IMG/VR virus record: IMGVR_UViG_3300032333_000234
Location: 1-48,302 of that record
Strand: one strand, 5' to 3'
DNA: 48,302 nucleotides
Origin: a virus
Below the pieces are notes generated by a model. The model saw nothing but the letters and a program-made list of their open reading frames with translations. It did not search any database and was not told the origin of the DNA. Of the stretch, positions 124 to 46,182 are shown one piece after another (position 1 is the first letter of the stretch; each line of letters starts with the position of its first letter). The position numbers were made by a program, and so were the translations under genes.

Positions 124-1456
124 CGCGCACAGCTACAAGAAGATCGTGGACAGGGCCATCGAGCTCAATCCGGCCGTCAGACTCCTCGGTGTCACCGCGA
201 CTCCAGGGCGAGGTGACGGCAAGGGCATGGTAGACATGTTCTCCAACGTCGCCGACATAATCAAGCTCGGCGAGCTCGTGGCGGGAGGCTTCCTTGTGAA
301 GCCCAGGTTCTATGTGATCGACTGCTGCATACGCGATGAACTCAGCAAGGTCCGCGTGACCGCGAGCGACTTCGACATGGAGCAGGTCGCCGCAATCATG
401 GATCAAAGCCCCGTAACGCAGCGCGTGATAGACGAATGGCGCTCAAAGGCCGGCGACAGGCGTACGGTCGTGTTCTGTTCGACCGTTATGCACGCCCAGC
501 ATGTATGCTATGCGTTCCAGGTCGAGGGCATCAAGGCCAGGTGGATATCCGGCGACATGCCGATGGGCGACAGGACTTCCATCCTGCGCGACTTCGACAA
601 GGGCGAGATACAGGTCATCGTGAACGTGGCCGTTCTCACGGAGGGCTGGGACTGCCAACCCGTGTCCTGCGTTGTGCTGCTACGGCCATGCTCCTACAAG
701 AGCACCATGATCCAGATGATCGGGCGCGGTCTGCGCAAGGTCGACCCGGAGATGTATCCTGGCGTGGTCAAGGACGACTGTGTTGTCCTTGATTTCGGGT
801 ACAGCCTGGTCAAACACGGCTCGATAGAGGCCGGCGCCAACATCAACGGGAGCTGCGATGAGGACGAATTCCAGACGTGTCCCGAGTGCTCCAAGCTCGT
901 ACCGGCCAAGGAAGAGTTCTGTCCGTTCTGCAACCACCAGCTGATCATCGTCGAAGCCCCCAAGGAAGAGGAGGAAGACGAAGAAAAGAAGATGCCTCTC
1001 AAGGAGGAGACGCTCTACGACTTCAAGCTGCGTGAGGTTGAACTGCTCGAAGCCTCACCCTACAAGTGGCAAGACATGTTCGACGGCATGGTCACGGTGG
1101 CCAATGGAATGAGCGCCTGGGCCGTGATCGTCTACTACAACGACAAGTGGGTGGCCATCGGCAAGGTCGAGGACTCCCCGGTCGGGAAGCAGCCTGCGAG
1201 ACTCCTGGCCGTATCTGGCAAGGAAAATCGCCCGGCAGCCCTCGCGTCGGCAGACGACTTCCTCCGTGAAAACGGGGATGCGGACGCCTCAAAGAAGACC
1301 AAACGCTGGCTTACACAGCCGGCCACAGAAAAACAGCTTCAACTCCTGGGCTATGAGCAATTTTCCGCCTTCGGAGTCACGAAGTATCTTGCCTCATGCC
1401 AACTTACTTGGCAATTCAATGAGCGCGAGATCCAACGTCTCGTATTGAAATCATGA
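2..1456 (+). CDS. DEAD/DEAH-box (SF2) helicase, C-terminal part (5' end lies at 47941-48179)
   Basis: Joined across the circle, the protein has 564 residues (47941-48179 followed by 1-1456). It is an ATP-driven nucleic-acid helicase of superfamily 2. Walker A (APTGAGKT, residues 28-35) is in the right-hand fragment. This fragment holds the DEAH box (115-118, VIDEAHH), motif III (TATP) and motif VI (MIGRGLR). After the helicase core comes a four-cysteine zinc ribbon (CPEC...CPFC), an acidic E/K stretch and a C-terminal domain I do not recognise. The stop overlaps the next gene, a PD-(D/E)XK nuclease, by four bases (ATGA), so the two are probably translationally coupled and act together in replication or recombination. 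The first codon here (base 2) is internal, because the window cuts the gene. Function in phage DNA metabolism is inferred from motifs and neighbours. Confidence 0.92.
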   Translation, partial: ERKEWSPGTTFGMVQTLSIDKNLETMPKLDFIVIDEAHHVAAHSYKKIVDRAIELNPAVRLLGVTATPGRGDGKGMVDMFSNVADIIKLGELVAGGFLVKPRFYVIDCCIRDELSKVRVTASDFDMEQVAAIMDQSPVTQRVIDEWRSKAGDRRTVVFCSTVMHAQHVCYAFQVEGIKARWISGDMPMGDRTSILRDFDKGEIQVIVNVAVLTEGWDCQPVSCVVLLRPCSYKSTMIQMIGRGLRKVDPEMYPGVVKDDCVVLDFGYSLVKHGSIEAGANINGSCDEDEFQTCPECSKLVPAKEEFCPFCNHQLIIVEAPKEEEEDEEKKMPLKEETLYDFKLREVELLEASPYKWQDMFDGMVTVANGMSAWAVIVYYNDKWVAIGKVEDSPVGKQPARLLAVSGKENRPAALASADDFLRENGDADASKKTKRWLTQPATEKQLQLLGYEQFSAFGVTKYLASCQLTWQFNEREIQRLVLKS

Positions 1457-2247
1457 CCGACATGTTTAAGCCCGAAACAGTCAATCTGTTCTGCGAGGCG
1501 TTCGTATCCCAAGTCGATAAGGCACTTATCAACAAGAGAGCGAGCCAACCGAAGCGACAGTATCTGGGCGCCTCCCTCTGGGGAGAGACTTGTGAGAGGA
1601 AACTTGGATACATCTTCCATCAGCACCCCGAGGACGAAGGTTCCGGCTTCACGGCCAACACCCTTCGGATCTTCGACATGGGACACGACTGCGAAGACCG
1701 TGTTGCCGAATACGTCAAGGTGGCAGGCTTCGAGCTGATCACCCACAAGGCTGACGGAGGACAGTTCGGGTTCGAGGCCGCCGAAGGCAAGCTGAAGGGG
1801 CATATCGACGGAGTTATAACATCAGGGCCGGCGTTCGCTCAGTTCGAGTATCCCGTCTTGTGGGAGAACAAAGGACTCAACAACAAGAGCTGGAACGACA
1901 CGCTCAAGAAGGGCGTCAAGTCGTCCAAGCCCCTGTACTACTCCCAGGCACAGACATACATGGCCTACATGGAGCTCACCAACGGATGTATCTTCACGTT
2001 CCTGAACCGCGACAGCGGCGAGCTCGCCTCCGAGTTCCTGCCCTTCGATGCGAGGCAAGCCCAGGAGTCGAGCGACCGCGCCGTGCGCGTCATCAAGAGC
2101 TCCAACCCCGCAGAGCTGAGCAAGTGCACCAACGATCCGGCGGACTTCCGCTGCAAGTGGTGCAACTTCAAGAAGACATGCTGGGACTCCGGCATCACCA
2201 CCGTAACCACCGAGGACACCCTGCCCCTATGGCTAAGAAGAAAGTGA
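1453..2247 (+). CDS. PD-(D/E)XK nuclease with Fe-S cysteines (Cas4/RecB-like)
   Basis: A 264-residue protein with the core of the PD-(D/E)XK nuclease family: GHIDG (D119) followed by WENKG (E138, K140), the expected metal-binding and catalytic residues. One early cysteine (C47) plus three near the C-terminus (C234-x2-C237-x5-C243) match the iron-sulfur pattern of Cas4 and RecB/AddB-type nucleases, which use it to hold the nuclease domain together. It starts in an ATGA overlap with the DEAH helicase, and primase-helicase and recombination genes are close by. A 5'-3' or end-processing exonuclease in phage recombination is the likely role. No Cas1 or CRISPR array is present, so a CRISPR role is not supported. 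The substrate cannot be told from sequence. Confidence 0.85.
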   Translation: MTDMFKPETVNLFCEAFVSQVDKALINKRASQPKRQYLGASLWGETCERKLGYIFHQHPEDEGSGFTANTLRIFDMGHDCEDRVAEYVKVAGFELITHKADGGQFGFEAAEGKLKGHIDGVITSGPAFAQFEYPVLWENKGLNNKSWNDTLKKGVKSSKPLYYSQAQTYMAYMELTNGCIFTFLNRDSGELASEFLPFDARQAQESSDRAVRVIKSSNPAELSKCTNDPADFRCKWCNFKKTCWDSGITTVTTEDTLPLWLRRK

Positions 2248-2558
2248 ACAAGAAGGGCAAGAAGGGCATCACCCTTGTCCGGAAAGTCCTGGACAACTAC
2301 GTCGACGTAATCGGAGACGAAGAGATGCTCGTCGCTGACGGCTTCGATGAAGCCATCATCGGCATCACGTTCGGATACGGAGATCAGGTCGTCGTGTACG
2401 ATTGGGACAAATGCATCGAGATACTCCGCAAGGACATGACCCATGAAGACGCGCTCGAACACATGAGCTACAACGTGACCGGAGCTTACGTCGGAGAACG
2501 CACGCCGCAGTTCGTCCGCTTCATGGACTCAATCGAAGAAGAATATGGACCAAGATAA
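2229..2558 (+). CDS. Hypothetical protein, lysine-rich N-terminus
   Basis: A 109-residue protein starting with a strongly basic tract (MAKKKVNKKGKKG) followed by an acidic, mixed alpha/beta-looking body. The chosen ATG at 2229 overlaps the end of the nuclease gene by 19 bases; longer in-frame extensions would run through the nuclease frame. The stop overlaps the next gene by 14 bases. I do not recognise a family. Similar short proteins are common in phage replication operons, but no function can be given. Confidence 0.75.
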   Translation: MAKKKVNKKGKKGITLVRKVLDNYVDVIGDEEMLVADGFDEAIIGITFGYGDQVVVYDWDKCIEILRKDMTHEDALEHMSYNVTGAYVGERTPQFVRFMDSIEEEYGPR

Positions 2559-2943
2559 CAAACATAAGCGAGCGCGCTTCGAGTACAAGGGCGTCAAAAT
2601 GTCGTACTTCCGCATGGAGCGCATCAAGGAGATCACTCCCTTGCTCGACAAGGCCAACCAACAACGCATGACCATCCCGCAGGCAGCCAAGTGGATGGGA
2701 TGGTCGACTTCCGCCCTGCGGAATTGGATCAAGATCATCGGCGTGCATTGGCACGCGAGGCCGAAGCGCAAGGTCTACCGCTTCGACAAGCAGGGCTGGG
2801 ACGAGAAGATCAAGGCCATGCGCGAGCAGAAGATCCCCATCCCCAAGATAGCCATAGCCCTCAACGTTGGGCCTTGGAACATCTCCAGGTACATCCGCGA
2901 CCACGGCCTCCAGGCACGTTTCAAGAAAGGCGAGCAGCAGTGA
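2545..2943 (+). CDS. Helix-turn-helix DNA-binding protein
   Basis: A 132-residue basic protein with two helix-turn-helix-like segments. The first is around residues 36-58 (TIPQAAKWMGWSTSALRNWIKIIG), the second around 95-118 (IPIPKIAIALNVGPWNISRYIRDHG). The pattern resembles small regulatory or replication-initiation DNA-binding proteins with tandem HTH units. It lies directly upstream of the primase-helicase, whose possible GTG start overlaps this stop codon (GTGA). It could be an initiator or loader acting with the primase-helicase, or a transcription regulator. Sequence alone does not separate these. Confidence 0.75.
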   Translation: MDQDNKHKRARFEYKGVKMSYFRMERIKEITPLLDKANQQRMTIPQAAKWMGWSTSALRNWIKIIGVHWHARPKRKVYRFDKQGWDEKIKAMREQKIPIPKIAIALNVGPWNISRYIRDHGLQARFKKGEQQ

Positions 2944-5201
2944 ACGACATGAAGATAGGCAAGGAAGCCCTCATGCTTCACATGCACGTCATATTCGGCA
3001 AGATGCCAAAGTATGGCTACATCAACGTGCGAGGCATCGGCGAAAAAGGCACGGACGGAGAGGGCGAGTTCCGCGAGGACAAGTTCATCGACCTGGCAAA
3101 TTGCAGCGACCCGATCGCAGAAGTGTGGCGTCATGTCGAAAGATGGAGCTCCTACAACCGCGCGTCATTCATCGTGCCGGCGATCCTGTCGCAACCGAGA
3201 GGGACGAGCGAGAACATCGCGGAGTTCCGTTCCATAGTGGTCGACCTTGACTCAGGGGATATCGACGCGAAGCATTGCTTCCTCGAGAAGCTCATGGGAG
3301 AGCCGACAGCCGTGGTGATGTCCGGCGGAGAGATAGACGGCATGCGCAAGCGGCACCTCTGGTGGTCGCTCATGGACCCGTGCAAGGACGTCGCATCGTT
3401 CATCAAGCTCAGGGATGAGGTGGCCCGCAAGGGAGGCGGAGACATGCAGTTCGGCCTGGGCGTGGAAGGCAATCCGTTCGGAAGGGCTCACCAGCCGGTA
3501 AGGCTCGCAGGCTCTACGCACGGCAAGAACAATGTCATCAAGCCCGTGGCGATCAAGATAGTCCCCGAGACGGCGCAGGCGTATGGCATCGACCTGATAC
3601 GCGAAAGGGTCATCGTCAGCCCGACCGCCTTCGACGGAAGCACCGTGGAGGCGAGCGAGCCGATCTTCCGCGCCGAGCGAGCCCAGGTCGACCTGAACGA
3701 GAAGGTGTACGAGGGAGGTGATGATGAGAAGAACCGCTTCAGCCAATTCACCCGCGTATGCGGCTTCTACATCAGCACCGTGCGGAAGGGCGAGAAGACG
3801 CTCGATGAGGCAAAGGAAGCCCTGTTCGGATGGATGGAGGTGAACATGGTCCCGCCGTGGCCCGTCCAGCGCGCCGAAAGGGAGTGGAACGCCGTCCTGT
3901 CCAGGGATATCGCAAACCACGGCCCGATGCCGGAGCCCGTCAAACCCATGATCGCGGACGGAGACGGACTCGAAGTATGGGCTGCCCACCGCTGGTCCAT
4001 GACCGAGAAACCGAAGCGCCGATTCCTCGTGGACAACCTCATCCTCGCCGGCAAGCACCAGCTGCTCGTCGCCGAAGGCGGCGCCGGCAAGACGTTCCTC
4101 ATGCTGGATCTCGCCATCAAGATCGCGTCCTATGAGCCAGGAGAGAAGCTCGAATGGTGCGGCTCGCGCATCAGTGAAGGTGGAACGGTCGTCATCCTGA
4201 CCACCGAGGACGACAAGGATGAGCTTCATATCCGACTGCATGACATTGACCCTGGCAACAGACGCGAGAAGGCCGGCGACAAGCTGATCGTCTTCCCGAC
4301 CATCAACTCCGGCGGATCATTCGCCATCACCGAGGTCGACGCAAGGACAGGCGAAGCCAAGCCGTCCCGCCGATGGGCCGAGTTCATGGCCCTCCTCCGC
4401 AGGCTGCCCGACCTCAAGCTCGTCGTAGTGGACACCCTCAACAGCACCCTGCACGGCGAGGAAAACTCAGCCACCGTAATCAATGAGTTCGTCCGCGTAG
4501 CATCCCAGGTGTGCGGCGACCTTGGCGCAGCCCTCATGCTCACCCACCATATCCGCAAGCAGGGCGATGAGCCCATCCGGGGCGTGGAGGACATGAAATC
4601 AAGCATCCGAGGCTCGTCTGCGCTCCCGGCTGCCTTCCGATCCGTCATCGGCATCTGGCATTGCTCAGACTACGACCGCCGGCTCACCGCCATGGGACTC
4701 GCCCCGAAGCGAGGCCTCCTGTGGAAGCTCGCCGTCGTCAAGGCCAACAACCCGGAGATGTTCGACGGTGAACGCACCCTCCTGCGGTCCGACTCAGGCC
4801 TGCTGCTGGATGTGAGCGACAAGGATCAGTTCTCCGTGGTCAACATCGGGGAACGCCACGCCTGGCTGGTCCTCGCGATCGAACAAGCGGCCCTCAACGG
4901 CCACCCTTACTCGATCGAAGGAAAGAACGCCAAATCCGGCCTCTACCGCAGGCGGAACGAGCTCCCGCAGGTGCTCAAACAGGTCGGCCCGAGCGAATTC
5001 CAGCACCTTGTGGACGATATCATGGCCAAGAACCTCATCGTCGCCGCATCCGCCAAGGGCGGAAAGGAGAAGAAGTGGCTGGATGTCCCCACCGGGCCTA
5101 TCGCGCGGGATACGGACGGCGCGGAGCTCACCTCCGGCGCCTACCGCCCCCCGAATTGGGATCAATGGGAGTACGACCCCGTGATGAACGTATGTATCTG
5201 A
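2940..5201 (+). CDS. Primase-helicase: RepB-like primase domain fused to RepA-like (AAA_25) ATPase
   Basis: A 753-residue protein if started at GTG 2940 (GTGA overlap with the HTH gene); ATG 2949 is the alternative start. The N-terminal part looks like an archaeo-eukaryotic-type primase of the RepB_primase family: VVDLD (D102, D104) for metal binding, then a histidine-containing segment and the RLAGSTHGKNN signature near residue 190. The C-terminal part is a RecA-fold hexameric helicase like RepA/AAA_25: Walker A GGAGKT (380-385), Walker B VVVDT (D498) and LTHHIRKQ after it. Such fusions unwind DNA and make primers at a replication fork. No DNA polymerase gene is present, so it probably recruits the host polymerase. 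Assignment is by motif. Confidence 0.88.
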   Translation: MNDMKIGKEALMLHMHVIFGKMPKYGYINVRGIGEKGTDGEGEFREDKFIDLANCSDPIAEVWRHVERWSSYNRASFIVPAILSQPRGTSENIAEFRSIVVDLDSGDIDAKHCFLEKLMGEPTAVVMSGGEIDGMRKRHLWWSLMDPCKDVASFIKLRDEVARKGGGDMQFGLGVEGNPFGRAHQPVRLAGSTHGKNNVIKPVAIKIVPETAQAYGIDLIRERVIVSPTAFDGSTVEASEPIFRAERAQVDLNEKVYEGGDDEKNRFSQFTRVCGFYISTVRKGEKTLDEAKEALFGWMEVNMVPPWPVQRAEREWNAVLSRDIANHGPMPEPVKPMIADGDGLEVWAAHRWSMTEKPKRRFLVDNLILAGKHQLLVAEGGAGKTFLMLDLAIKIASYEPGEKLEWCGSRISEGGTVVILTTEDDKDELHIRLHDIDPGNRREKAGDKLIVFPTINSGGSFAITEVDARTGEAKPSRRWAEFMALLRRLPDLKLVVVDTLNSTLHGEENSATVINEFVRVASQVCGDLGAALMLTHHIRKQGDEPIRGVEDMKSSIRGSSALPAAFRSVIGIWHCSDYDRRLTAMGLAPKRGLLWKLAVVKANNPEMFDGERTLLRSDSGLLLDVSDKDQFSVVNIGERHAWLVLAIEQAALNGHPYSIEGKNAKSGLYRRRNELPQVLKQVGPSEFQHLVDDIMAKNLIVAASAKGGKEKKWLDVPTGPIARDTDGAELTSGAYRPPNWDQWEYDPVMNVCI

Positions 5202-6718: not shown

Positions 6719-7098
6719 ATCCCCTTTTTCTTGTCCGCCTTGACCTGCCTCGCCACCTTTCGCTTGTCCCCCTTGGCCTTCTCCCGCGCTATGAAGCCAT
6801 TGCAGTCCCAGGACATGATATCATCGAGCTCCTTCTTGATCTTGGTCCTATATGTCCGCATCCAGTCCCTTTTTTGCCGTCTCTTGTGCCGTGTGCTGCT
6901 GGACTTGGGCTTGCCGGCGTACCAATTGTTGTTGGTTTGGCGCTGATTTTTGATGCGTTCGACCATCCATAGCACCAGCTTCGACATGGGCAAATCGGGC
7001 ATTTTTAGCCGTTTTAGCACGGCCGGGATCGAGGAAGGTCCGGAATCATCCTTTGAGGATGAATTGGGGTTTTTTCGGAGTATTGCCATTGCACGCAT
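6712..7098 (-). CDS. Basic hypothetical protein
   Basis: A 128-residue protein (119 if started at the ATG at 7089). It is rich in lysine and arginine, especially in the second half (RHKRRQKRDW, REKAKGDKRKVARQVKADKKKG), suggesting nucleic-acid binding. It converges on terS with a seven-base overlap of stops. A perfect TTGACA box at 7122-7127 (minus strand) lies just upstream, giving independent support that the frame is expressed. No family is recognised. Confidence 0.6.
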   Translation of the reverse strand: MRAMAILRKNPNSSSKDDSGPSSIPAVLKRLKMPDLPMSKLVLWMVERIKNQRQTNNNWYAGKPKSSSTRHKRRQKRDWMRTYRTKIKKELDDIMSWDCNGFIAREKAKGDKRKVARQVKADKKKGIY

Positions 7099-7100
7099 AC

Positions 7101-7127
7101 AAAATACTCCGAGGGCTCAGTTGTCAA
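7101..7127 (-). promoter_or_regulatory. Sigma70-like promoter for the basic minus-strand gene
   Basis: On the minus strand, TTGACA (7122-7127) is followed after 15 bases by TATTTT (7101-7106). The -35 box is perfect; the spacer is short and the -10 box is imperfect. Transcription would begin close to the ATG at 7089, so the mRNA would be almost leaderless. Confidence 0.4.
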
Positions 7128-7240
7128 TCCCCAACATCATCAGCCACTTGCTGCATGTCTGTAGAAGTCTGAAATTTTTGAGGAAGGTCATCCTCATCCC
7201 CTCTACCACTTTTAACCAATAAAATCAGCCGGGCCGTGAG

Positions 7241-7312
7241 GATTCCCTACGGGAAGGATTATAGTCCCTAACGGTACTCTTAATCCCTTACCCCCGTCAA
7301 AGGGGGAGGGAT
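7241..7312. promoter_or_regulatory. Structured control region: three TCCCT repeats and two hairpins upstream of rusA
   Basis: Between the divergent basic gene and rusA lie three spaced copies of a TCCCTWAC-like motif (7244-7250, 7265-7272, 7284-7290, about 20 bases apart). Hairpins form at 7243-7255 (TTCCC/GGGAA) and 7283-7312 (ATCCC..CCCCC / GGGGG.GGGAT, loop GTCAAA). No poly-T follows, so a simple terminator is unlikely. Regular spacing suggests an operator or iteron-like site. This is inference. Confidence 0.4.
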
Positions 7313-7356
7313 AAAGACTAATCGCTTCCTGCGTAGCCAGCCACCAAACTCTCAAC

Positions 7357-7818
7357 ATGATCACAACAGTTTTTACAGTCAACGGCGCCCCGCGCCCTCA
7401 ACCCCGCCCCCGCTTCATCAAGGGCCATGTCGTATCCACCGCCGACAAGGAGACGCGCCTGTGGCGCGCCAAGGTCGTCGCGGTATGCGCCGAGCTACCC
7501 AAGCTGCCCGACAAGACCCCCCTCTCCGTTGAGATGGTCTTCCGCATGCCCACCCCCAAGTCCAACCGCACCAACCTGCCCCACCTCTTCACCCCGGACG
7601 TGGACAACCTGGCGAAGCTGATCCTGGATGCCATGCAGGACGCGAACATGCTGCCGAACGACTCAGCCGTCTCCCGCCTCACCGTGCTGAAAAGGTGGGC
7701 GTTGCCAGGGGACGCCGGCGTGTCGGTCCAGGTGTCGGACGACCTGCCATCGGGAAATGGCCCGCAGACCCCTCCAAGATGGCTTACAGGCGGTTCTGAT
7801 CCCGATGACGGGGAGTAA
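7357..7818 (+). CDS. rusA: RusA-type Holliday junction resolvase
   Basis: A 153-residue endodeoxyribonuclease of the RusA family, which cuts Holliday junctions symmetrically during phage recombination and before packaging. The hallmark is FTPDVDNLAKLILDAMQD: acidic D81, D83 and D91 with N84 and K87 match the metal-binding active site, and the N-terminal FTVNGAPRPQPRPRF matches the family start. Length is close to the usual 120-150 residues. The leader is C/A-rich (CACCAAACTCTCAAC before ATG) with no Shine-Dalgarno sequence. It is the only plus-strand gene between terS and 14 kb, and it ends facing the terminator of the minus-strand cluster. Confidence 0.92.
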   Translation: MITTVFTVNGAPRPQPRPRFIKGHVVSTADKETRLWRAKVVAVCAELPKLPDKTPLSVEMVFRMPTPKSNRTNLPHLFTPDVDNLAKLILDAMQDANMLPNDSAVSRLTVLKRWALPGDAGVSVQVSDDLPSGNGPQTPPRWLTGGSDPDDGE

Positions 7819-7832
7819 CCCCATGAAAACAA

Positions 7833-7854
7833 GAAGCCCCATTCCTGGGGCTTC
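7833..7854 (-). terminator. Rho-independent terminator of the minus-strand accessory cluster
   Basis: GAAGCCCC (7833-7840), loop ATTCCT, GGGGCTTC (7847-7854) is a perfect 8-bp stem. On the minus strand it is followed by TTGTTTTC, a U-rich tract. It closes the minus-strand operon, which faces rusA. Its stem is symmetric, so it may weakly act on rusA transcripts too. Confidence 0.75.
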
Positions 7855-7876
7855 GTAGACCGTCTTGCCGGGGGCT

Positions 7877-8074
7877 CTATCTCGTCCCGAGCGTATGCCC
7901 GGCGACCGAGGCGTCCACCGTGCGCTTGCCACCATTGTGTTCGGCGGCTGCGCGACGGACGGCCCTCTCGACGTAGGCATCCAGGGCCATGAGAAACTCC
8001 TTGGCGGTGCGCTTGTCTGCGACCTCCTTGATCAGTCTCTTCACGGCGGCGGGTTTGATGTATTGTGTCTTCAT
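7877..8074 (-). CDS. Small basic protein with possible histone fold
   Basis: A 65-residue protein. A short helix (about 8-20, PAAVKRLIKEVAD), a long amphipathic helix (about 23-46, TAKEFLMALDAYVERAVRRAAAEH), a loop HNGGKRTV (46-53) and a short helix start (DASVAGH) follow the helix-strand-helix order of a single histone fold. In archaeal histones the loop before the last helix has a similar GRKT-type sequence. It would be a DNA-packaging or DNA-bridging protein. It is the last gene of the minus-strand cluster and has a C-run leader (TTTCCCCCC before ATG). The fold is my inference from pattern; the gene itself is well supported. Confidence 0.65.
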   Translation of the reverse strand: MKTQYIKPAAVKRLIKEVADKRTAKEFLMALDAYVERAVRRAAAEHNGGKRTVDASVAGHTLGTR

Positions 8075-8083
8075 GGGGGGAAA

Positions 8084-8308
8084 TTACGGGCTGTAATAGT
8101 ATTCAAGCTCCCATCCGAGCTCCTTGTAGTACCAATCTTCCATGTCCCAGCGCGCCTTACACAACTTGTAGTAAAGCGCCACGTCCTCCTCTTCGGATGC
8201 GGCGTTCATCAGGGCGGTGTAATGCTCCGAGGCGCAACGGAAACTCTTGTCGTCCGCCCAGATCTTCCAATCCACCCGGAGCAACTTCGCGGCTTCGCTT
8301 CTGTTCAT
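8084..8308 (-). CDS. Small hypothetical protein
   Basis: A 74-residue protein (MNRSEAAKLLRVDWKIWADD...), acidic and rich in tyrosine and tryptophan near the C-terminus (DMEDWYYKELGWELEYYYSP). The start was chosen at 8308 because it forms an ATGA overlap with the upstream gene's stop (8305-8307), a pattern repeated through this cluster; longer frames would overlap that gene extensively. The first 15 residues resemble an HTH entry helix but this is weak. No family is recognised. Confidence 0.65.
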   Translation of the reverse strand: MNRSEAAKLLRVDWKIWADDKSFRCASEHYTALMNAASEEEDVALYYKLCKARWDMEDWYYKELGWELEYYYSP

Positions 8309-8556
8309 ACGGGTCGGATCGGGATGCTCCTGGGCTCGTCCTTGTTCGGCACGGTTCGCGAGTGGGTCAGCCAGCCTTTGCCGGCGACATAGGCGCTGAC
8401 CGTGTAGACCGTCTCGCCTGCGTAGCGGTCGCAACGGACGGAGACGGACTTGCCTTCCATGTGAAGGGCGAGGTTCTCCATCATGTTGACCACGAGGTTG
8501 TCGGCCCAGGCCTCGAAGCCCAGGCGGTCGACGCTTTCCGGTGTGGGGTCACTCAT
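8305..8556 (-). CDS. Small hypothetical protein
   Basis: An 83-residue protein with a helical first half (RLGFEAWADNLVVNMMENLALHMEG) and a beta-rich second half (KSVSVRCDRYAGETVYTVSAYVAGKGWLTHSRTV). It overlaps the following gene by four bases (ATGA) and the preceding one by eight. No family is recognised; the amphipathic pattern and overlap chain support coding. Confidence 0.65.
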   Translation of the reverse strand: MSDPTPESVDRLGFEAWADNLVVNMMENLALHMEGKSVSVRCDRYAGETVYTVSAYVAGKGWLTHSRTVPNKDEPRSIPIRPV

Positions 8557-8695
8557 CGTTGTAGTCGCTGATCTCCTGTTTCAAGTCCTTGGGCTTGTAT
8601 TCGCCGTTCGCAATGTCCGCGAGGATATGCGCGACGTCATCCATCGTGGCGTCATCCCCGAGCCAGCGAAGCACCTGGTAGGCATCGACCCTCAC
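8549..8695 (-). CDS. Very small acidic protein, GTG start
   Basis: A 48-residue protein reading (M)RVDAYQVLRWLGDDATMDDVAHILADIANGEYKPKDLKQEISDYNDE. The GTG at 8695 overlaps the stop of the upstream gene (GTGA), like the ATGA overlaps around it; a longer ATG frame would run 75 bases into the neighbour. It is acidic and helical. No function is recognised. Confidence 0.55.
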   Translation of the reverse strand: MRVDAYQVLRWLGDDATMDDVAHILADIANGEYKPKDLKQEISDYNDE

Positions 8696-8976
8696 GGCTG
8701 CTTGCCCTCCTTGGCCGCGATCCACGCAAGCGCGCAGTTCTTCTTGTGCTGCTCCGGGCAGTCCCCGCAATGGATGAGGACAAGCGCGTCGCCGGCATTG
8801 GTCAGCAGCGCGACCTTGTTGAGCGCCTGGGCGTAGAGCAAGGACAGTCTCGCCACGTCATCTTTCAGCTCATCGTAGTCGGAAGACCGGACGAACTCCT
8901 TGCGCTTGTCTTCGTGATTACCGCAGGCGAGTCCGATCTGGCCTCCGATGTAGACGAAGGTTTCGACCTGCTTCAT
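8692..8976 (-). CDS. Small cysteine-containing hypothetical protein
   Basis: A 94-residue protein with a helical centre (DYDELKDDVARLSLLYAQALNKVALL) and a C-terminal cysteine group C70-x2-C73 ... C81 (HCGDCPEQHKKNCALAW) that could bind zinc together with a histidine. The start at 8976 makes an ATGA overlap with the stop of the upstream gene. No family is recognised. Confidence 0.65.
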   Translation of the reverse strand: MKQVETFVYIGGQIGLACGNHEDKRKEFVRSSDYDELKDDVARLSLLYAQALNKVALLTNAGDALVLIHCGDCPEQHKKNCALAWIAAKEGKQP

Positions 8977-9275
8977 CGCGCGTCCTCCTTCTCTTCGGCG
9001 TAGGCCGACGGAATACGGTGGGCGGTCTTGTGGCAGCAGAAGAGATGCGGGTCTTCCCAATTCACTTCGACCGCGACAACGTTCCACCCGCCCAAGCGGT
9101 TCGTGTCCTTCTCCGCGATCGCCTCGCGGATGAGGCCGGCGTTCTCCGACGCGGCCTCGTAGGACAACGGCTCGAAGTCGGAAAGGACGAAGTAGATGGG
9201 ATAGCCCCCCGGCCAAGCCCATGGGCCTGCCGAGAGGTATCTGTCGAAGTCCGCGGTGGTTTCGATCTTAACCAT
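8973..9275 (-). CDS. Hypothetical protein
   Basis: A 100-residue protein (MVKIETTADFDRYLSAGPWAWPGGYPIYFVLSDFEPLSYEAASENAGLIREAIAEKD...VVAVEVNWEDPHLFCCHKTAHRIPSAYAEEKED). The segment YFVLSDFEPLSYEAA with VVAVEVNWED resembles small accessory proteins common in phage and plasmid gene clusters, but I cannot name a function. It overlaps the next gene by four bases and the previous one by eight. Confidence 0.7.
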   Translation of the reverse strand: MVKIETTADFDRYLSAGPWAWPGGYPIYFVLSDFEPLSYEAASENAGLIREAIAEKDTNRLGGWNVVAVEVNWEDPHLFCCHKTAHRIPSAYAEEKEDAR

Positions 9276-9627
9276 TGTTGTCTTCTCCGATCGAGGCCAC
9301 GCGGTGGGGTTCGAGGATGTGCTGCTCGAACAGGGCGAGGAGGTTCTTGGCGCGAGGGCCGGCCTTCACGCCCTTGTCGTTCAGCATCTGCACGACCATC
9401 TTCTTGGTCGCGGAGGTATGTCGGAACATCAGGCCCTTCTGGGCCAACTGCAAGACCCCTCTGATCGAGAGGAGGCGGTAGTGCTCGATGCCCATCTTGC
9501 CGGTGATCATCTGCCCTCCGTGTTTGTCCTGCTCGATGCGCGAACCGTCCACCAGCGTCCGGACGGTCGTGCCGTCCGCGTTGGTGGTCAGTCCTGGGGT
9601 TGGTTTGTTTTCTTCGGGTGCGTTCAT
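9268..9627 (-). CDS. Hypothetical protein
   Basis: A 119-residue protein. The N-terminal 35 residues are polar and probably flexible. The rest is helical and basic (GIEHYRLLSIRGVLQLAQKG, then TSATKKMVVQMLNDKGVKAGPRAKNLLALFEQHI). The leader is a clear case of the C-rich pattern in this cluster: CCTTTCCCCCCACACAAAAA just before ATG, with no Shine-Dalgarno sequence. No family is recognised. Confidence 0.7.
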   Translation of the reverse strand: MNAPEENKPTPGLTTNADGTTVRTLVDGSRIEQDKHGGQMITGKMGIEHYRLLSIRGVLQLAQKGLMFRHTSATKKMVVQMLNDKGVKAGPRAKNLLALFEQHILEPHRVASIGEDNNG

Positions 9628-9648
9628 GTTTTTGTGTGGGGGGAAAGG

Positions 9649-9984
9649 TTAGTAGTTTTCGATTACGCCGTCCTTGGCGAAGCGGTAGGCGCGGATCAGC
9701 TGCTCTTCGAGGGGCATCTTGTCGTCGCCGTCCACGAAGAGGAAGCTGTTTCCTTTTCGTCCGACCGCGCAAAAATATCCATCGCCAACCTGGATGAAGA
9801 CCTTGCCGGCCTTCATGGAATACTCTCCGCCCAGGTGCAGCTCGTCGTCGGTGCTCTCCGCCTCGTTACGGCGTTCGTGCTTCGCGATCGGTATGCCACG
9901 GTCGACCAGCCAATCGCATACACGGCGCAGGACGAGCGAGTGCCGCAGTTTCTTGACCGTGCTGTTGGTGAGACTCCTGGGCAT
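9649..9984 (-). CDS. Hypothetical protein
   Basis: A 111-residue protein. A basic helical N-terminal third (STVKKLRHSLVLRRVCDWLVDRGIPIAKHERR) is followed by a beta-rich core (KAGKVFIQVGDGYFCAVGRKGNSFLFVDGDD) and a C-terminal helix (PLEEQLIRAYRFAKDGVIENY). It begins one base after the stop of the upstream gene. No function is recognised. Confidence 0.7.
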   Translation of the reverse strand: MPRSLTNSTVKKLRHSLVLRRVCDWLVDRGIPIAKHERRNEAESTDDELHLGGEYSMKAGKVFIQVGDGYFCAVGRKGNSFLFVDGDDKMPLEEQLIRAYRFAKDGVIENY

Positions 9985-9985
9985 G

Positions 9986-10387
9986 TCAGACTTCCTCCGA
10001 ATAGTAGAAGTCGATGAACTCGAAGGTGGGCCGGCTTTCGTAGCCGTCCAGCCAGAACATCAAGCCTTTCATGACCTCATCGCGCATCATCTCCTTCGTC
10101 ACGTCAACGGCGGGGCAAGACACGTCGACGTAGAAGTCAAAGACGAGCTCGTCGTAGACGTAGACCGTGCTCCCATTCTTGTCTCTGCTGGGACGCATCT
10201 GCATCTTCACGTTGCCGGCGATGAGGTCGAGCAGATCGAGCTGAATGTCGGGCAAGGCCTCGTCCAGCGTGATGTTTTCGAGCACGTCATTGCGGTGCGG
10301 GATGGCGACCCCGGGAGCGCCGGGGGATCGGGCGACGTAGTGACCAGCGTAAGGCGCGGTCAGTTTGTAGTGTAGTTTCGTTCTCAT
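9986..10387 (-). CDS. Hypothetical protein
   Basis: A 133-residue acidic protein with a beta-rich centre (GSTVYVYDELVFDFYVDVSCPAVDV) and helical flanks. It has a C-rich leader (CCCTTTCCCCCACACACAA before ATG) preceded by a stable hairpin at 10409-10426. No family is recognised. Confidence 0.7.
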   Translation of the reverse strand: MRTKLHYKLTAPYAGHYVARSPGAPGVAIPHRNDVLENITLDEALPDIQLDLLDLIAGNVKMQMRPSRDKNGSTVYVYDELVFDFYVDVSCPAVDVTKEMMRDEVMKGLMFWLDGYESRPTFEFIDFYYSEEV

Positions 10388-10408
10388 TTGTGTGTGGGGG
10401 AAAGGGGT

Positions 10409-10426
10409 CGGACGCTTTCGCGTCCG
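10409..10426 (-). other. Intergenic hairpin with GAAA tetraloop
   Basis: On the minus strand CGGACGC, loop GAAA, GCGTCCG forms a 7-bp stem with a GNRA tetraloop in the 45-base gap between two accessory genes. It is followed directly by GACCCCTTTCCCCC, nearly the same sequence that follows the hammerhead ribozyme at 12998-13047. It may protect or separate cistrons. Confidence 0.6.
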
Positions 10427-10432
10427 GGCTTG

Positions 10433-10615
10433 TCATTCATCAATCTCCGTCGCTTCCGTGTCGCTATCGGAGTCGACGATTGCCCAGGAGTGCCACTCCG
10501 GGTCTTGCATCAGTTGCTCGAATTGTTCGAGCGCTTCTTCTTCGCTCTTAGCTTCAATGTCGACGCTGATGTAAATCGTGTGTGACACGATAAACTTTTT
10601 TAGTTTCTTAGCCAT
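10433..10615 (-). CDS. Small acidic hypothetical protein
   Basis: A 60-residue protein: basic start (MAKKLKKFIVSHTIYISVDIEAKSEEEALEQFEQLMQDPEWHSWAIVDSDSDTEATEIDE) and strongly acidic end. The beta-strand, helix, beta-strand arrangement with SEEEALEQFEQLM resembles small single-domain proteins found in mobile elements, but a name cannot be supported. The leader is CAAACGCACAA before ATG. Confidence 0.65.
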   Translation of the reverse strand: MAKKLKKFIVSHTIYISVDIEAKSEEEALEQFEQLMQDPEWHSWAIVDSDSDTEATEIDE

Positions 10616-10629
10616 TTGTGCGTTTGGTT

Positions 10630-10995
10630 TTACTGCTTGTTGTATTCCTGTCGAGCGCCGATTGCGCTCTCCCGGAGTTTTGTCTCGCGGTAGACGAGCG
10701 CGCTGCTCGCGTCGCCCGTCTCCTGTTGGAGTCCGATCCGCCTCATCTCTTGGGCGAAGTGGACGGCCCTTTGTGCGCTCTTGTCGGAAGAGGCGACCAG
10801 GAGCGAAAGCAAAAGGTTGTTCATCTCCTGCGACCCCTTGATGCTCGAATGAACCCCGGAGTATGCCAGGGACAGGCGAGCAAGGTCTTCGAGGTCTACG
10901 GAGGCGAACGAAAGCTTCCCGTCTACGGCGACCCGCAAGGCCTTTCCCAAGGCCTTGGCGAGTCGCTCGGCTTCGAGGCGCGGTGACTTGCTCAT
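10630..10995 (-). CDS. Hypothetical helical protein
   Basis: A 121-residue protein, predicted mostly helical (PRLEAERLAKALGKALRVAVDGK, EDLARLSLAYSGVHSS, MNNLLLSLLVASSDKSAQRAVHFAQEMRRIGLQQ). The ATG at 10995 forms a four-base overlap with the upstream stop (10992-10994). No family is recognised. Confidence 0.65.
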   Translation of the reverse strand: MSKSPRLEAERLAKALGKALRVAVDGKLSFASVDLEDLARLSLAYSGVHSSIKGSQEMNNLLLSLLVASSDKSAQRAVHFAQEMRRIGLQQETGDASSALVYRETKLRESAIGARQEYNKQ

Positions 10996-11168
10996 TCTTC
11001 GGTGTCGCAGCCGAACATGGCCCGGAGGGTTTCGAGCCCCCTGCATGCTTGTCCGTTGGTCAGGTGTTCGGGGTGCTCCTCGAAGAATTGGATCACTTTG
11101 AAAGCGTCCTCTTCGTCTTCAATCGGACGCATGCCAAGGACAAGCGCCATTGCTTTGTGCGGAGTCAT
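10992..11168 (-). CDS. Small hypothetical protein
   Basis: A 58-residue protein (MTPHKAMALVLGMRPIEDEEDAFKVIQFFEEHPEHLTNGQACRGLETLRAMFGCDTEE). The start at 11168 overlaps the upstream stop at 11165-11167 (ATGA), and its own stop overlaps the next start in the same way. It is acidic and helical; no family is recognised. Confidence 0.6.
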   Translation of the reverse strand: MTPHKAMALVLGMRPIEDEEDAFKVIQFFEEHPEHLTNGQACRGLETLRAMFGCDTEE

Positions 11169-11446
11169 TGCCACACCTCCATGCAATCGGTGCAAACCGC
11201 GAAGGTCGGCCGCATCACGACCGAGCAAGACCGCCAAGCCTTGCCCCCTTCGATGTGTCTGCTTATCCAATTCGCGCGCCGCCTTCCCTTGCGGATCGCC
11301 TTGACGAAGTAACGAGCGCCGGCGAGATGATTTCCGCAACAGTCGCAAGGGCGCTTGCTAAACTCGTCACGCTCTACGTCCCCGGTGCTGCCGACCGGGA
11401 TGGTCGACAGCACTTCGAGCCTGGGGTGAATGTTGTTTTTCCTCAT
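11165..11446 (-). CDS. Putative zinc-binding protein
   Basis: A 93-residue basic protein with two cysteine pairs, C34-x2-C37 (CDCCGNH, with C36 and H40 nearby) and C85-x2-C88 (CTDC), the arrangement of a zinc ribbon or zinc finger. The middle is arginine-rich (AIRKGRRRANWISRH). It could bind nucleic acid. Start and stop are both in ATGA overlaps with neighbours. Confidence 0.65.
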   Translation of the reverse strand: MRKNNIHPRLEVLSTIPVGSTGDVERDEFSKRPCDCCGNHLAGARYFVKAIRKGRRRANWISRHIEGGKAWRSCSVVMRPTFAVCTDCMEVWQ

Positions 11447-11742
11447 TTGGAGCGTGGGCCAATCGTGCGAAGGATTGCGAAGCCCTTGCGCGCTTCCTCG
11501 ATCGCCTCGATGCGTCCGCGGTTGGCGTGGTGTCGCAGGTCGGACGTCATATCATCGGCCGTCTTGCCGTTCGTGGGGCGGTCTGCCCCCGCCTCGATGT
11601 TGTTGGCCCATTCGGCCATTTCCTTCGAGCTTTGGCAGGCCCTCCGGGCTCGCTCCAAGTGCCGGAGCGCTTCGTCGATGTGGGCGACGTGCTCGGGCGT
11701 GAAGCGGTAGGCCTTCGGCGTTTTCTTATTTTGTGTGTCCAT
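11443..11742 (-). CDS. Hypothetical protein
   Basis: A 99-residue, mainly helical protein (FTPEHVAHIDEALRHLERARRACQSSKEMAEWANNIEAGADRP..., then RGRIEAIEEARKGFAILRTIG). The leader is CCACCCACCCAAAAA before ATG. The stop forms an ATGA overlap with the zinc-binding protein gene. No family is recognised. Confidence 0.65.
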   Translation of the reverse strand: MDTQNKKTPKAYRFTPEHVAHIDEALRHLERARRACQSSKEMAEWANNIEAGADRPTNGKTADDMTSDLRHHANRGRIEAIEEARKGFAILRTIGPRSK

Positions 11743-11759
11743 TTTTTGGGTGGGTGGAA

Positions 11760-12347
11760 TTAGTTGTTTTTCGGATCAGTTTCGGGCGGAGGGGTGTCGT
11801 CATCCTCGTCCTCGTCTTCGTCATTGTCGAAGGGTTCAAGGATTTCCTCGCGAACCTTCTCGCCGGCTTTCCATTCGGCTTCGTATGTCTCGAAGAGTCC
11901 TCCCTCTTCCTCGAATGACGCGGTGAAGGTTAGTCCTGGGTGCTGCTTGCTCATTTCGAGCAGGACAGGTTCGGCCGGACTCCAAGCCGTGTTAAAGGAG
12001 TAGAAAAGGGAGAAGGTCTTTCCCTCCTTCGTGATGCCTCCGCAGTCGGGGTCGCATGCGTCCCATTTCGTCCCCCATATCTCGCAATGAAAGTCATAGG
12101 CGCTTGCAAAGCCATATTTCGAGATCAACTCGGCTTCCCTTCTCTTGTGGTCTTCATCGTCCTTGCCATAAACCTTTGCGCCGCCGTTCCATTCGTCCAG
12201 CTCCTTCGGGCAGGGCAGGAAGTTCTCGAAGGTCAAACAGGTTTCGCCGTGGCCGTCCTCGTCTTTCCCCTTGGCCTTCTTTTGGAAGGCTTCGAGGTCG
12301 CGGCGCTTGCCGGTGATCGTTAGTTGAGTGTAAGTCCAATTAGGCAT
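11760..12347 (-). CDS. Api92-like protein with ferredoxin-like fold
   Basis: A 195-residue protein. The start MPNWTYTQLTITG and the internal EIWGTKWDACD are the two most conserved stretches of the Api92/YubB family, whose members have a ferredoxin-like domain and occur in phages, plasmids and integrative elements; their biochemical role is not established. The last 25 residues are an acidic, disordered tail (DNDEDEDEDDD). It overlaps the upstream gene by eight bases. A GGAGG nine bases upstream of this ATG falls inside that gene's codons and is probably chance. Confidence 0.75.
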   Translation of the reverse strand: MPNWTYTQLTITGKRRDLEAFQKKAKGKDEDGHGETCLTFENFLPCPKELDEWNGGAKVYGKDDEDHKRREAELISKYGFASAYDFHCEIWGTKWDACDPDCGGITKEGKTFSLFYSFNTAWSPAEPVLLEMSKQHPGLTFTASFEEEGGLFETYEAEWKAGEKVREEILEPFDNDEDEDEDDDTPPPETDPKNN

Positions 12348-12711
12348 TTTCGTTTTCCTCCGTGTGTTCGGTGATGGTCAAGGTCTTCGCCTCTTCCGCG
12401 TCGGAAGCGTTGCAGATGGCGACGCAATAAGCGCCGTCTCCGAGGTAGGTCGTCAAGAGGGCTTCGGCCTTTTTCGGGCGGTTGTATCCCATCGCTCGAA
12501 GGGCGACAATCAAGGCGAGCGCTGCCTTGATTGCGTTCCCCTCTCCTTCCGTCTCGTAATCCCAAGCGCTCCAAATGTTCGGGCGCTTGTCTTCGTCGCC
12601 AGCGAGCCAGGCGCGAACCCTTGCCCCTCTCCTGTTGGTCGGGCCGTGGTATTTGGTGAAGATTGCGCGCCCGGCGTGGGCATGCTTCAATTCGGTTTGT
12701 TTGGTTGCCAT
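12340..12711 (-). CDS. Hypothetical protein
   Basis: A 123-residue protein. Residues 15-45 (RAIFTKYHGPTNRRGARVRAWLAGD) are basic and conserved-looking, followed by an alanine-rich helix (AIKAALALIVALRAMGYNRPKKAEALLT) and a short acidic end. The start at 12711 was chosen over an upstream ATG because it follows the cluster's C-rich leader (CCCCTCACCCCCGCCCACA). No family is recognised. Confidence 0.65.
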   Translation of the reverse strand: MATKQTELKHAHAGRAIFTKYHGPTNRRGARVRAWLAGDEDKRPNIWSAWDYETEGEGNAIKAALALIVALRAMGYNRPKKAEALLTTYLGDGAYCVAICNASDAEEAKTLTITEHTEENENA

Positions 12712-12730
12712 TGTGGGCGGGGGTGAGGGG

Positions 12731-12973
12731 TTAGAGGTTGCTCTTGATGCTGTCAAGGTTCGCCTCAATCGCGGCGCTCAAGCCGGACGCTTCGCGGATC
12801 GCGTCGGCGTGGTGCGCCAACTCGCTTGCCGCAATCGACAGTTCAACCGCCGTCCCTTCATCGCTCGTCACGGCGAGCGCTTCGAGGCCGGCCGCAATGC
12901 GTTCGAGGGCGTTTGCGGTCTGGGTGAACGTGAAGAGCCTTTGACGGCTCGGGGTGTTGTTTTGGTTTTGCAT
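12731..12973 (-). CDS. Small alanine-rich helical protein, first gene after the hammerhead ribozyme
   Basis: An 80-residue protein with an alanine- and leucine-rich helical body (TANALERIAAGLEALAVTSDEGTAVELSIAASELAHHADAIREASGLSAAIEANLDSIKSNL), likely a coiled coil. Its leader (CCCCTTTCACCCCCGCACAAA before ATG) begins just past the 3' end of the hammerhead ribozyme. After self-cleavage its mRNA would carry a 52-base 5' leader with a 5' hydroxyl end. No function is recognised. Confidence 0.65.
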   Translation of the reverse strand: MQNQNNTPSRQRLFTFTQTANALERIAAGLEALAVTSDEGTAVELSIAASELAHHADAIREASGLSAAIEANLDSIKSNL

Positions 12974-12997
12974 TTTGTGCGGGGGTGAAAGGGGTCT

Positions 12998-13047
12998 GGA
13001 CTCGTCAGCGCAGGCAGCACCTGCGGACGCCTCACGGCGTTTCGTCC
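12998..13047 (-). ncRNA. Hammerhead ribozyme (type II topology)
   Basis: Read 5' to 3' on the minus strand from 13047: GGAC (stem II, 5' strand), GAA plus the A starting stem III, stem III ACGCC-GUGA-GGCGU, cleavage-site C, stem I CGCAGG-UGCUG-CCUGCG, core CUGACGA, then GUCC closing stem II. Every conserved core position is present: CUGANGA, GAAA, the A15.1-U16.1 pair and C at position 17. Stems III, I and II have 5, 6 and 4 perfect pairs, and stem III carries a GNRA loop. Cleavage is expected between minus-strand bases opposite 13026 and 13025. It sits 5 bases after the radC stop and 24 bases before the next ATG, so cutting would separate the two messages. Hammerheads are known in phage genomes; activity here is untested. 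Confidence 0.93.
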
Positions 13048-13052
13048 TTGGG

Positions 13053-13736
13053 CTAAATCAAGCCGGCCTCGCCAAAGCTAAACCAGCCTTTGCTTGCGGG
13101 GTCGGCCTCCTGCGTTCCAATTATGACGTGGTCGAGCAACTCAATACCCATTACTTTTCCGGCGTCATTGATTTGCTTTGTGATGGCACGATCCGCAGGG
13201 GACGGGGTAGGGTCGCCGCTGGGGTGGTTGTGGCATATGATGACGGCGGACGCTCCGGCGGAAACGGCAAACTTGAAAACCTCCCTTGGGTGCATCAAGG
13301 CAGAGGTCGCCGTGCCGATGCTTATCATCCCATGCCGGAGCAGGCGGTTGCGGCGGTTTAGTGCCAGGACTAAACAGGCTTCTCGGTCGAAGGGGAACAG
13401 GCCTTTGCAATACTTCCAAACCTTCGAGGGTTCGTCGAGTTTCTCGGGGAGAGTCCTTCCAGCCGTCTCAATCCGTCTTGCGACCTCAAAGACGGCAGCA
13501 AGGCGCAAGGCCTTTGCCCTCGGCAGGTGGGCTTCGAGCTCCTGTAAGGTTGCGTTTGTCAGGCTCGGGGCGGTGATGCTTCCGAAGGCTTCCAGCAGGC
13601 CGGCCAAGTCGGCAGACTCGGCAGGCAGGCCGGAGGCGACGGCGAGCAATTCGGAGTCGAGCAAGGCGGACACGCCGCGAGACGCAAGGCGCGTCTCGGG
13701 CTTGTCTTCGTGCAGAATGAAAGAGGGCTTTTTCAT
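13053..13736 (-). CDS. radC: RadC-like JAB/JAMM domain protein
   Basis: A 227-residue protein with the full RadC architecture: an N-terminal helix-hairpin-helix-like region (about 10-85) and a C-terminal JAB/MPN domain with the zinc signature H169-N-H171-P-S-G-D-P-T-P-S179-x2-D182. RadC proteins are frequent on phages and mobile elements. A DNA repair role is traditional but doubtful, and anti-restriction or accessory functions have been proposed. It is co-transcribed with an upstream zinc-finger gene (ATGA overlap) and followed immediately by the hammerhead ribozyme. The family call is secure from the motif. Confidence 0.93.
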   Translation of the reverse strand: MKKPSFILHEDKPETRLASRGVSALLDSELLAVASGLPAESADLAGLLEAFGSITAPSLTNATLQELEAHLPRAKALRLAAVFEVARRIETAGRTLPEKLDEPSKVWKYCKGLFPFDREACLVLALNRRNRLLRHGMISIGTATSALMHPREVFKFAVSAGASAVIICHNHPSGDPTPSPADRAITKQINDAGKVMGIELLDHVIIGTQEADPASKGWFSFGEAGLI

Positions 13737-13969
13737 TCGGCGTCTTCCTCGCTTTCGATGATCTCAATCTTTCCGCAAATCATCAATTCCTCGATGCCAA
13801 AAACCTGCTTCGCTCCGCAGGCTTCGCAGGTGTAGTTCCTGGCATCCGGTTCGCATCCTCCGTCTTGTATCTCGCCGCAGGCAAGACAGCCGCCGTCGTT
13901 GCTGTTGTTGTGCATGTGATAGTCTTCCTCGGTCATTCGGAAGACGACCGGGCGGGAGGGCTTGCTCAT
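13733..13969 (-). CDS. Small zinc-ribbon protein
   Basis: A 78-residue acidic protein with cysteine pairs C28-x2-C31 and C48-x2-C51 (plus C39 and C65), typical of a zinc ribbon. The second knuckle reads YTCEACGAKQVFG. It lies in ATGA overlaps with radC downstream and the 57-residue gene upstream. It may bind nucleic acid or a protein partner; no specific family is recognised. Confidence 0.7.
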   Translation of the reverse strand: MSKPSRPVVFRMTEEDYHMHNNSNDGGCLACGEIQDGGCEPDARNYTCEACGAKQVFGIEELMICGKIEIIESEEDAE

Positions 13970-14139
13970 CGCTTGCCCCCTTTCGCCTTCGGCTTCGTCT
14001 TCGTCACGCGGCGCGCCTCGTTGATGAGGTCGGCCAACGTTTCGACGTGCTGCCGGAGGGCGTCGAGATGGTCAGCGATTGAGCGTAGGGAGGCGACCGC
14101 ATAGGGCGGGCGGCCTCTGTGTTTTTGTTTGTGTTTCAT
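13966..14139 (-). CDS. Small basic protein, first gene of the minus-strand cluster
   Basis: A 57-residue frame: MKHKQKHRGRPPYAVASLR, a central helix (IADHLDALRQHVETLADLINEARR) and a lysine-rich tail ending KGGKR. The stop (13966-13968) overlaps the next start as ATGA, and the leader (CCCTTCCCCCCGAT before ATG) matches the cluster's C-rich pattern. The RGRPP stretch resembles an AT-hook core (RGRP), suggesting DNA binding. It is short but both junctions fit the cluster. Confidence 0.65.
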   Translation of the reverse strand: MKHKQKHRGRPPYAVASLRSIADHLDALRQHVETLADLINEARRVTKTKPKAKGGKR

Positions 14140-14238
14140 ATCGGGGGGAAGGGTTTAATTTCTGGCCGCTCCTTCCGCTATTGGCAAGCGCAATTTAGGC
14201 TTGTGCTGTTCGAGCTCCTGGGCATGTTCGGTTGTCCT
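14140..14238. promoter_or_regulatory. Divergent intergenic region
   Basis: These 99 bases separate the minus-strand cluster from the plus-strand gene at 14239 and should hold both promoters. TTGGCA (14181-14186, plus) and its complement TTGCCA (14182-14187, minus) are possible -35 boxes, but neither has a convincing -10 box at normal spacing. The call is positional. Confidence 0.35.
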
Positions 14239-14703
14239 ATGTCATACCTAAACGAAACTCAAAAACGGATTGCCGAAGTCTTCGGCTCATGCCCCGCCCT
14301 GCTGTCCTTCGACGAAGCAAACAAGCGGGCGAAGGCGGCGACATTCGAGCACGACTCGAAGGATCTCGAAGCCGACCCAGCCGCCTGTTTGCTTTGGCAG
14401 TCGACCGCCTTCGTCGACGCCGGCGAGTGCCTCCGCTGGCTGCTTACGCTGTCGCCGGAGTTGCGCGCCGAAGCGGTCGAAGGTGAATGGGTTTTTGGCT
14501 GGTTTGTCGAAGACGACGACCGCGAACCCTCCGACCCGGAAGGTGAGTTTGTCTCTTCGCTGTCCGTGTCCGACATTGAAGACCGCGAAGACCTCCGGCA
14601 CGCGGTCGAGCACGCTTCGCGGTTCGGCTGCTTGTTCTTCGAGGTATGGCCGGCACGGCCTCCCGGCTGCGGCCCGGTCTTTGACGGCGACAAGCGAGAC
14701 TGA
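14239..14703 (+). CDS. Acidic hypothetical protein
   Basis: A 154-residue, strongly acidic protein (MSYLNETQKRIAEVFGSCPALLSFDEANKRAKAATFEHDSKD..., then WFVEDDDREPSDPEGEFVSSLSVSDIEDREDLRHAVEHASRFGCLFFEVWP). ATG 14239 is preferred over 14224 because the recognisable helical body begins there; neither start has a Shine-Dalgarno sequence. It stands alone between the divergent region and the GC-rich block. Its acidity would suit a DNA-mimic or inhibitor protein, but that is speculation. No family is recognised. Confidence 0.65.
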   Translation: MSYLNETQKRIAEVFGSCPALLSFDEANKRAKAATFEHDSKDLEADPAACLLWQSTAFVDAGECLRWLLTLSPELRAEAVEGEWVFGWFVEDDDREPSDPEGEFVSSLSVSDIEDREDLRHAVEHASRFGCLFFEVWPARPPGCGPVFDGDKRD

Positions 14704-45415: not shown

Positions 45416-45428
45416 GCTATTAACCGAC

Positions 45429-46068: not shown

Positions 46069-46076
46069 CAAACTTT

Positions 46077-46160: not shown

Positions 46161-46182
46161 TCCACTCTCCCCCACAACCGAC

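Follow-up and report, generated by a model that had tools for sequence, protein, structure and literature searches.

The minus strand of the window, i.e., the whole analyzed stretch of 48,302 nucleotides (virus record IMGVR_UViG_3300032333_000234), carries a complete hammerhead ribozyme (HHR) between a gene for a RadC-family protein and a small downstream gene. Judged from its sequence, this segment is a true hammerhead of type II and falls into a compact subclass found in phages, and we put the probability that it is active and cuts the message between the two cistrons, thereby separating and insulating radC and the small gene, at roughly 0.7. The element comprises 50 nt, the segments of which follow one another from 13047 to 12998 in the order given in Table 1. 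All parts of the hammerhead core are present, namely C3-U4-G5-A6-N7-G8-A9 and G12-A13-A14 as well as the pairs C11.1-G10.1 and A15.1-U16.1. The cleavage-site residue H17, which must not be G, is C in the window element, as it is in 171 of 194 relatives, the others featuring A (15) or U (8). Stem II is open and stems I and III are closed by loops, which is the type II layout. In agreement with the first-pass annotation of this DNA, which had described all hammerhead elements in type II order with three perfectly paired stems, these are present letter for letter on the minus strand. The cut that it had predicted at 13026/13025 fits the position of C17. Structure, conservation and placement at the junction are demonstrated by the analysis; cleavage of this sequence is predicted from its intact core. 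Neither a structural scanner nor a covariance model detected a second hammerhead within the 48.3-kb window.

Table 1. Features at and around the hammerhead element. Coordinates refer to the window except for the last row, which refers to the loci named there.
Feature	Position	Strand	Evidence or remark
Complete type II hammerhead ribozyme (HHR)	12998..13047	minus	Sequence, isolated fold, held-out covariance model, group alignment
A directly 5' of stem II	13048	minus	Same base in 197/199 compact relatives
Stem II, 5' strand GGAC	13044..13047	minus	Compensatory change A-U to U-A in L001 and L287
Core G12 A13 A14 (GAA)	13041..13043	minus	Invariant in 61 relatives
Stem III hairpin ACGCC-GUGA-GGCGU, with A15.1-U16.1	13027..13040	minus	Sequence and covariation
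C17, predicted cleavage between 13026 and 13025	13026	minus	Cleavage inferred
Stem I hairpin CGCAGG-UGCUG-CCUGCG; would be 5'-OH end of downstream message	13009..13025	minus	6/6 pairs covary
Core CUGACGA (C3-A9, N7 = C)	13002..13008	minus	CUGANGA invariant in 61 relatives
Stem II, 3' strand GUCC	12998..13001	minus	Sequence and group alignment
A directly 3' of stem II	12997	minus	Same base in 152/199 compact relatives
Predicted 52-nt leader on downstream message after cleavage, C/A-rich	12974..13025	minus	Inferred
Upstream gene, RadC-family protein, 227 aa	13053..13736	minus	Pfam PF04002, E=6.8e-38
Downstream gene, 80-aa protein (function unknown), ribozyme-linked	12731..12973	minus	Protein search and locus comparison
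Next gene in same-strand run, PHROG 3199 (function unknown)	12340..12711	minus	
Gene after PHROG 3199 gene, Api92-like ferredoxin-fold domain (PF18406)	11760..12347	minus	
Intrinsic terminator directly after radC, homologous junction	L002 3684-3701; L003 3675-3692		

Folding of the isolated 58 nt yielded the three-stem junction as minimum free energy (MFE) as well as centroid structure (-23 kcal/mol, z = -1.95). In a 191-nt context, stems I and III are retained and the 4-bp stem II is replaced in an MFE structure of low frequency. With regard to detection, the Rfam covariance models that the first-pass annotation had proposed as a check did not return the element: no hammerhead family matched at the site, neither at the gathering nor at a permissive threshold (E<=10), and the element stays below the gathering cut-off of 37 bits of RF02276 (Hammerhead_II). 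In control scans the same models found many Hammerhead_II copies in the Streptomyces phages R4 and Spernnie and in several viral contigs, and missed those in the sister phage L001, in L004 at 2504 and all three copies in L008. Matches listed for compact-class loci in the permissive scan mostly scored 27-39 bits vs. the cut-off of 37. The compact subclass therefore appears to sit at or below the RF02276 cut-off, and we read the miss as a limit of that model because a model specific for the subclass matches strongly. This covariance model, R1, was derived from 61 other compact (class B) phage hammerheads with the window and L001 left out; it matched the window element with 70.6 bits (E=1.3e-18) and L001 with 71.7 bits (E about 1e-18), the runner-up in the window reaching 12.2 bits. 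On Markov-simulated sequence, the structural scanner produced 1.2 matches per 1.16 Mb, most of them weaker. The exact 50-mer was not encountered again in a scan of viral contigs.

In the sister phage L001, which is colinear with the window, the ribozyme occupies the corresponding junction and shares 34 of its 50 letters with the window element; its stem I is largely rewritten yet paired, and an A-U pair of stem II is swapped to U-A. Among homologous phages, where the first-pass annotation would have expected conservation of core and stem pairing, both are indeed conserved, with compensatory changes. In a group alignment of relatives, both partners have changed in 6 of the 15 pairs, with pairing at 100%. 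Across the 61 class B sequences this applies to 12 pairs out of 15, a level attained by none of 500 shuffles; the 100% pairing among these 61 is not independent evidence because they were picked by a scanner that requires the stems. Among pattern matches unfiltered for pairing, each stem I pair is present in 85-96% and each of the two inner stem II pairs that the pattern leaves free in 87-95%, as compared to 41-63% when partners are re-dealt. Three stems with covariation thus surround the core, as is characteristic of hammerheads. The missing Rfam match could be taken to mean that the segment is a chance resemblance, a DNA-level feature or part of a protein-coding feature. Chance origin is at odds with the rarity of simulated matches. 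The held-out E value and the compensatory changes in RNA pairs refute this reading, the intergenic site speaks against it as well, and we give it practically no credence.

A blastn search of annotated phages with a 2-kb query matched the ribozyme alone, in otherwise unrelated Streptomyces phages. Recent transfer from these phages was considered as the source of the matches and is unlikely, as the shared letters are those of the core and stem III and stem I differs freely. A degenerate pattern with stems I and II left free occurs in at least 120 stretches in viral contigs and in 33 stretches of bacterial and archaeal genomes (257 Gb searched). In 271 loci, the structural scanner recorded 368 type II copies, 350 of which are unique; single loci contain as many as nine. 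Simulated versions of these loci yielded one copy. Copies of types I and III are rare (11 and 10, respectively) in the real loci, which had been gathered with a type II pattern. The copies of multi-copy loci all reside on one strand in 60 of 61 cases.

Type II copies fall into two classes. Class A mostly combines a 3-bp stem II with a stem I of 20-24 nt and a pseudoknot between loop I and the tail, at least four Watson-Crick pairs being possible in 86 of 109 sequences vs. 27 expected. Class B, the compact subclass, is characterized by a 4-bp stem II and mostly a 17-nt stem I. The window element belongs to this class, as indicated by its 4-bp stem II, 17-nt stem I, A at position -1, U...G loop and match to R1. 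Loop I of class B mostly reads G-U-N-A-N-G-C; part of this motif was contained in the second search pattern, and matches to the first pattern show the same loop. A pseudoknot between loop I and the 3' tail (at least 4 bp) was rejected for the compact subclass because its frequency (21 of 238) is close to expectation (16), and in the window element loop I and tail can form 3 bp at most. It is through this pseudoknot that type II hammerheads cleave fast when Mg2+ is low. Since the subclass does without it and only 3 bp are possible in the window, cleavage in the cell could be slow unless another contact takes its place; our guess for class B is a non-Watson-Crick contact between the U of loop I and the A residues flanking stem II.

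Part of the compact subclass features an additional element. The tail N'UCAG follows stem II directly in 29 of 238 class B ribozymes vs. 2.7 expected. Scanning the collection with core position N7 and the tail base left free returned 86 intact ribozymes (T-A 52, C-G 33, T-G 1), in all of which the two bases can pair vs. 45 Watson-Crick pairs expected. In a merged set, N7 and the tail base pair without exception in 107 ribozymes with UCAG (Fisher p = 9e-28, a value not to be taken literally as the sequences are related to an uncertain degree), and no such relation exists in 253 ribozymes without UCAG (p = 0.32). In two loci, ribozymes with the T-A pair and ribozymes with the C-G pair occur together. 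Loci with N'UCAG include L009, L013, L031, L039, L059, L065 and L099, next to about 100 other compact hammerheads. The covariation between N7 and the tail implies an alternative hairpin, CUGAN-GAGNNN-N'UCAG, that would lock the core and be incompatible with its active form. According to energy models that ignore the tertiary fold, this hairpin is the MFE structure of all cleaved products and of 105 of the 107 uncleaved RNAs. Its function may be to switch off the ribozyme or, once the cut is made, to lock the product. In the window element, the tail reads AGACC and N'UCAG is absent. That the compact class as a whole represents very common, unmodelled makers of RNA ends at gene junctions, part of them equipped with an N'UCAG lock for an irreversible cut or for switch-off, is a broader proposal to which we assign slightly less than even odds.

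To which of its two neighbors the ribozyme is tied can be read from the comparison of loci. A search with the downstream 80-aa protein returned seven loci. The ribozyme is located directly upstream of the 80-aa gene in five loci, i.e., the window, L001, L289, L290 and L291, its 5' neighbor being radC in the first two and another gene in the latter three. In L287 and L288 it lies directly downstream of the 80-aa gene and ahead of another gene, and in L286, likewise a locus of the 80-aa gene, it is absent. In L002 and L003, a more distant radC homolog is followed by an intrinsic terminator, and the gene that comes next is a different one. A link between ribozyme and radC was rejected, since radC of L002 and L003 has no ribozyme and the small gene has one under other upstream genes; on the basis of these gene arrangements, the ribozyme is to be seen as part of the junction, and the gene with which it is associated is the small downstream one. 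From its company with the 80-aa gene family under different upstream genes, it might be concluded that the active ribozyme mainly serves as a 5' leader device for the small gene, affecting translation or RNA stability, and not as a means of cistron separation. We consider this unlikely given its position downstream of the gene in L287 and L288, its absence from L286 and the occurrence of ribozymes ahead of many unrelated genes across phages. The sister contig L283 is colinear with window positions 45414-48302 and then with positions 38 onward, and the window probably represents a circular or permuted, near-complete genome.

Across phages, 229 of 318 ribozymes begin close to a same-strand stop codon and are followed by a start codon with an RBS ahead of it, upstream same-strand ORFs of at least 60 codons being taken into account, vs. 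42 of 318 at random places and 15 of 318 on the opposite strand. The median distances are 1 nt from the stop to the ribozyme and 23 nt from the ribozyme to the start. Varying presence among relatives and the switch from one side of the gene to the other would be compatible with a neutral or selfish passenger motif of no benefit to the phage, yet core and pairing are under strict purifying selection, which together with the strand bias and the precise distances to stop and start renders such a motif highly improbable. At least nine type II hammerheads occur on one strand within one gene run in L171 (IMGVR_UViG_3300038412_000035, positions 167-5156); most begin no more than a few bases away from the stop codon of the upstream gene, and the full contig contains 11 model matches. 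In Streptomyces phage Spernnie (L007), two back-to-back hammerheads are situated between two genes (2434-2555), and this double cut site would free a very short RNA. In Streptomyces phage R4 (L006), hammerheads occupy positions 3912-3969, 2113-2165 and 2796-2848; the annotated CDS gp75.1 largely overlies a hammerhead and gp79 and gp77 are annotated as starting within hammerheads, so these three annotations are probably wrong. As the compact subclass is common (the counts from several collection scans being lower bounds), poorly detected by the standard Rfam model and mostly located between stop and start codons, the number of phage operons cut by ribozymes is probably underestimated, and ribozymes probably overlap some of the annotated starts and small genes.

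In the window, 5 nt separate the radC stop codon (TAG, 13055-13053) from the ribozyme and 24 nt separate the ribozyme from the next ATG (12973-12971). These coordinates agree with the spacings, the 52-base leader and the inter-cistron placement originally proposed. A Shine-Dalgarno motif is present neither in the window leader (12974-12997) nor in the leaders of L001, L289 and L287, which are C/A-rich, too; such leaders suggest that the host is not reliant on Shine-Dalgarno initiation. No sigma-70-type promoter was found in 7000-14300, and a polycistronic transcript is thus assumed. On such a minus-strand transcript, the ribozyme would fold once made and self-cleave at 13026/13025, a site that has a closed hairpin on either side owing to the type II layout. 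This would leave the radC message with the stem III hairpin and a 2',3'-cyclic phosphate at its 3' end, and the small-gene message would start with a 5'-OH on the stem I hairpin, which is located at the extreme 5' end of the downstream product in its predicted fold, with the leader mostly open. 5'-OH ends are poor substrates for 5'-monophosphate-dependent decay. With a hairpin on both new ends and no 5' phosphate, the cistrons would be separated and insulated, and each gene would gain its own mRNA half-life and leader. The lack of the loop I/tail pseudoknot, the loss of stem II from the MFE structure in the 191-nt context and the promoter result count against this reading. Alternatively, separation might let one half degrade faster and lower dosage, akin to the terminator after radC elsewhere, and the intrinsic terminators and different downstream genes at the homologous position in L002 and L003 would fit such a destabilizing cut. 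We regard it as quite improbable in view of the constrained distance at which the downstream ATG is kept, the hairpins on both new ends, which argue for protection, and the increase in transcript levels caused by the hammerhead-based insulator RiboJ. Separation of the cistrons with protection of both ends is favored because of the hairpin ends, the 5'-OH and the RiboJ effect, and any effect on stability or expression would follow from known hammerhead chemistry and the RiboJ precedent.

Type II hammerheads with clustered copies flanking phage genes were reported by Perreault et al. (2011; PMC3088659), who proposed that they cut long phage transcripts into gene-length mRNAs and already noted members without pseudoknot; the clustered phage hammerheads cleave in vitro and in E. 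coli (PMC3088659). The role of prokaryotic hammerheads was called an open question by De la Pena et al. (2017). The inter-cistron role, which the first-pass annotation considered not routinely described, had been proposed in 2011 (PMC3088659). The window element is therefore real and not a new type of thing, and with its inter-cistron role being prior art, its novelty is modest. The purpose of phage hammerheads has been open since 2011, and the locus offers a clean test case with one ribozyme, one junction, defined spacing and relatives with the ribozyme, without it or with a terminator.

With the type II hammerheads of phages and prophages (PMC3088659; RF02276), the compact subclass shares the core, the permutation with open stem II, the intergenic location in gene runs and the presence of multiple copies per operon. 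It is distinguished from them by its 4-bp stem II, 17-nt stem I and UNANG-type loop, and it lacks the loop I/tail pseudoknot of the Perreault consensus. RF02276 leaves the window element undetected. Synthetic RiboJ, based on the sTRSV hammerhead, is similar in that its hammerhead gives the message a defined 5' end that bears a hairpin; it raises transcript about twofold, and its authors suggest that the terminal hairpin may explain this (PMC6206723). RiboJ originates from a plant virus satellite RNA and is engineered after a promoter, whereas the window ribozyme is natural and lies between two genes. The HDV-like theta ribozymes of gut phages (PMC10879173) are likewise small self-cleaving ribozymes with which tailed phages process their own transcripts, but they adopt another fold and are postulated to function in tRNA 3' end processing. 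Finally, the terminator of L002 and L003 occupies the homologous junction and sets the 3' end of radC mRNA; it does so by halting transcription, whereas the ribozyme would cut the read-through transcript.
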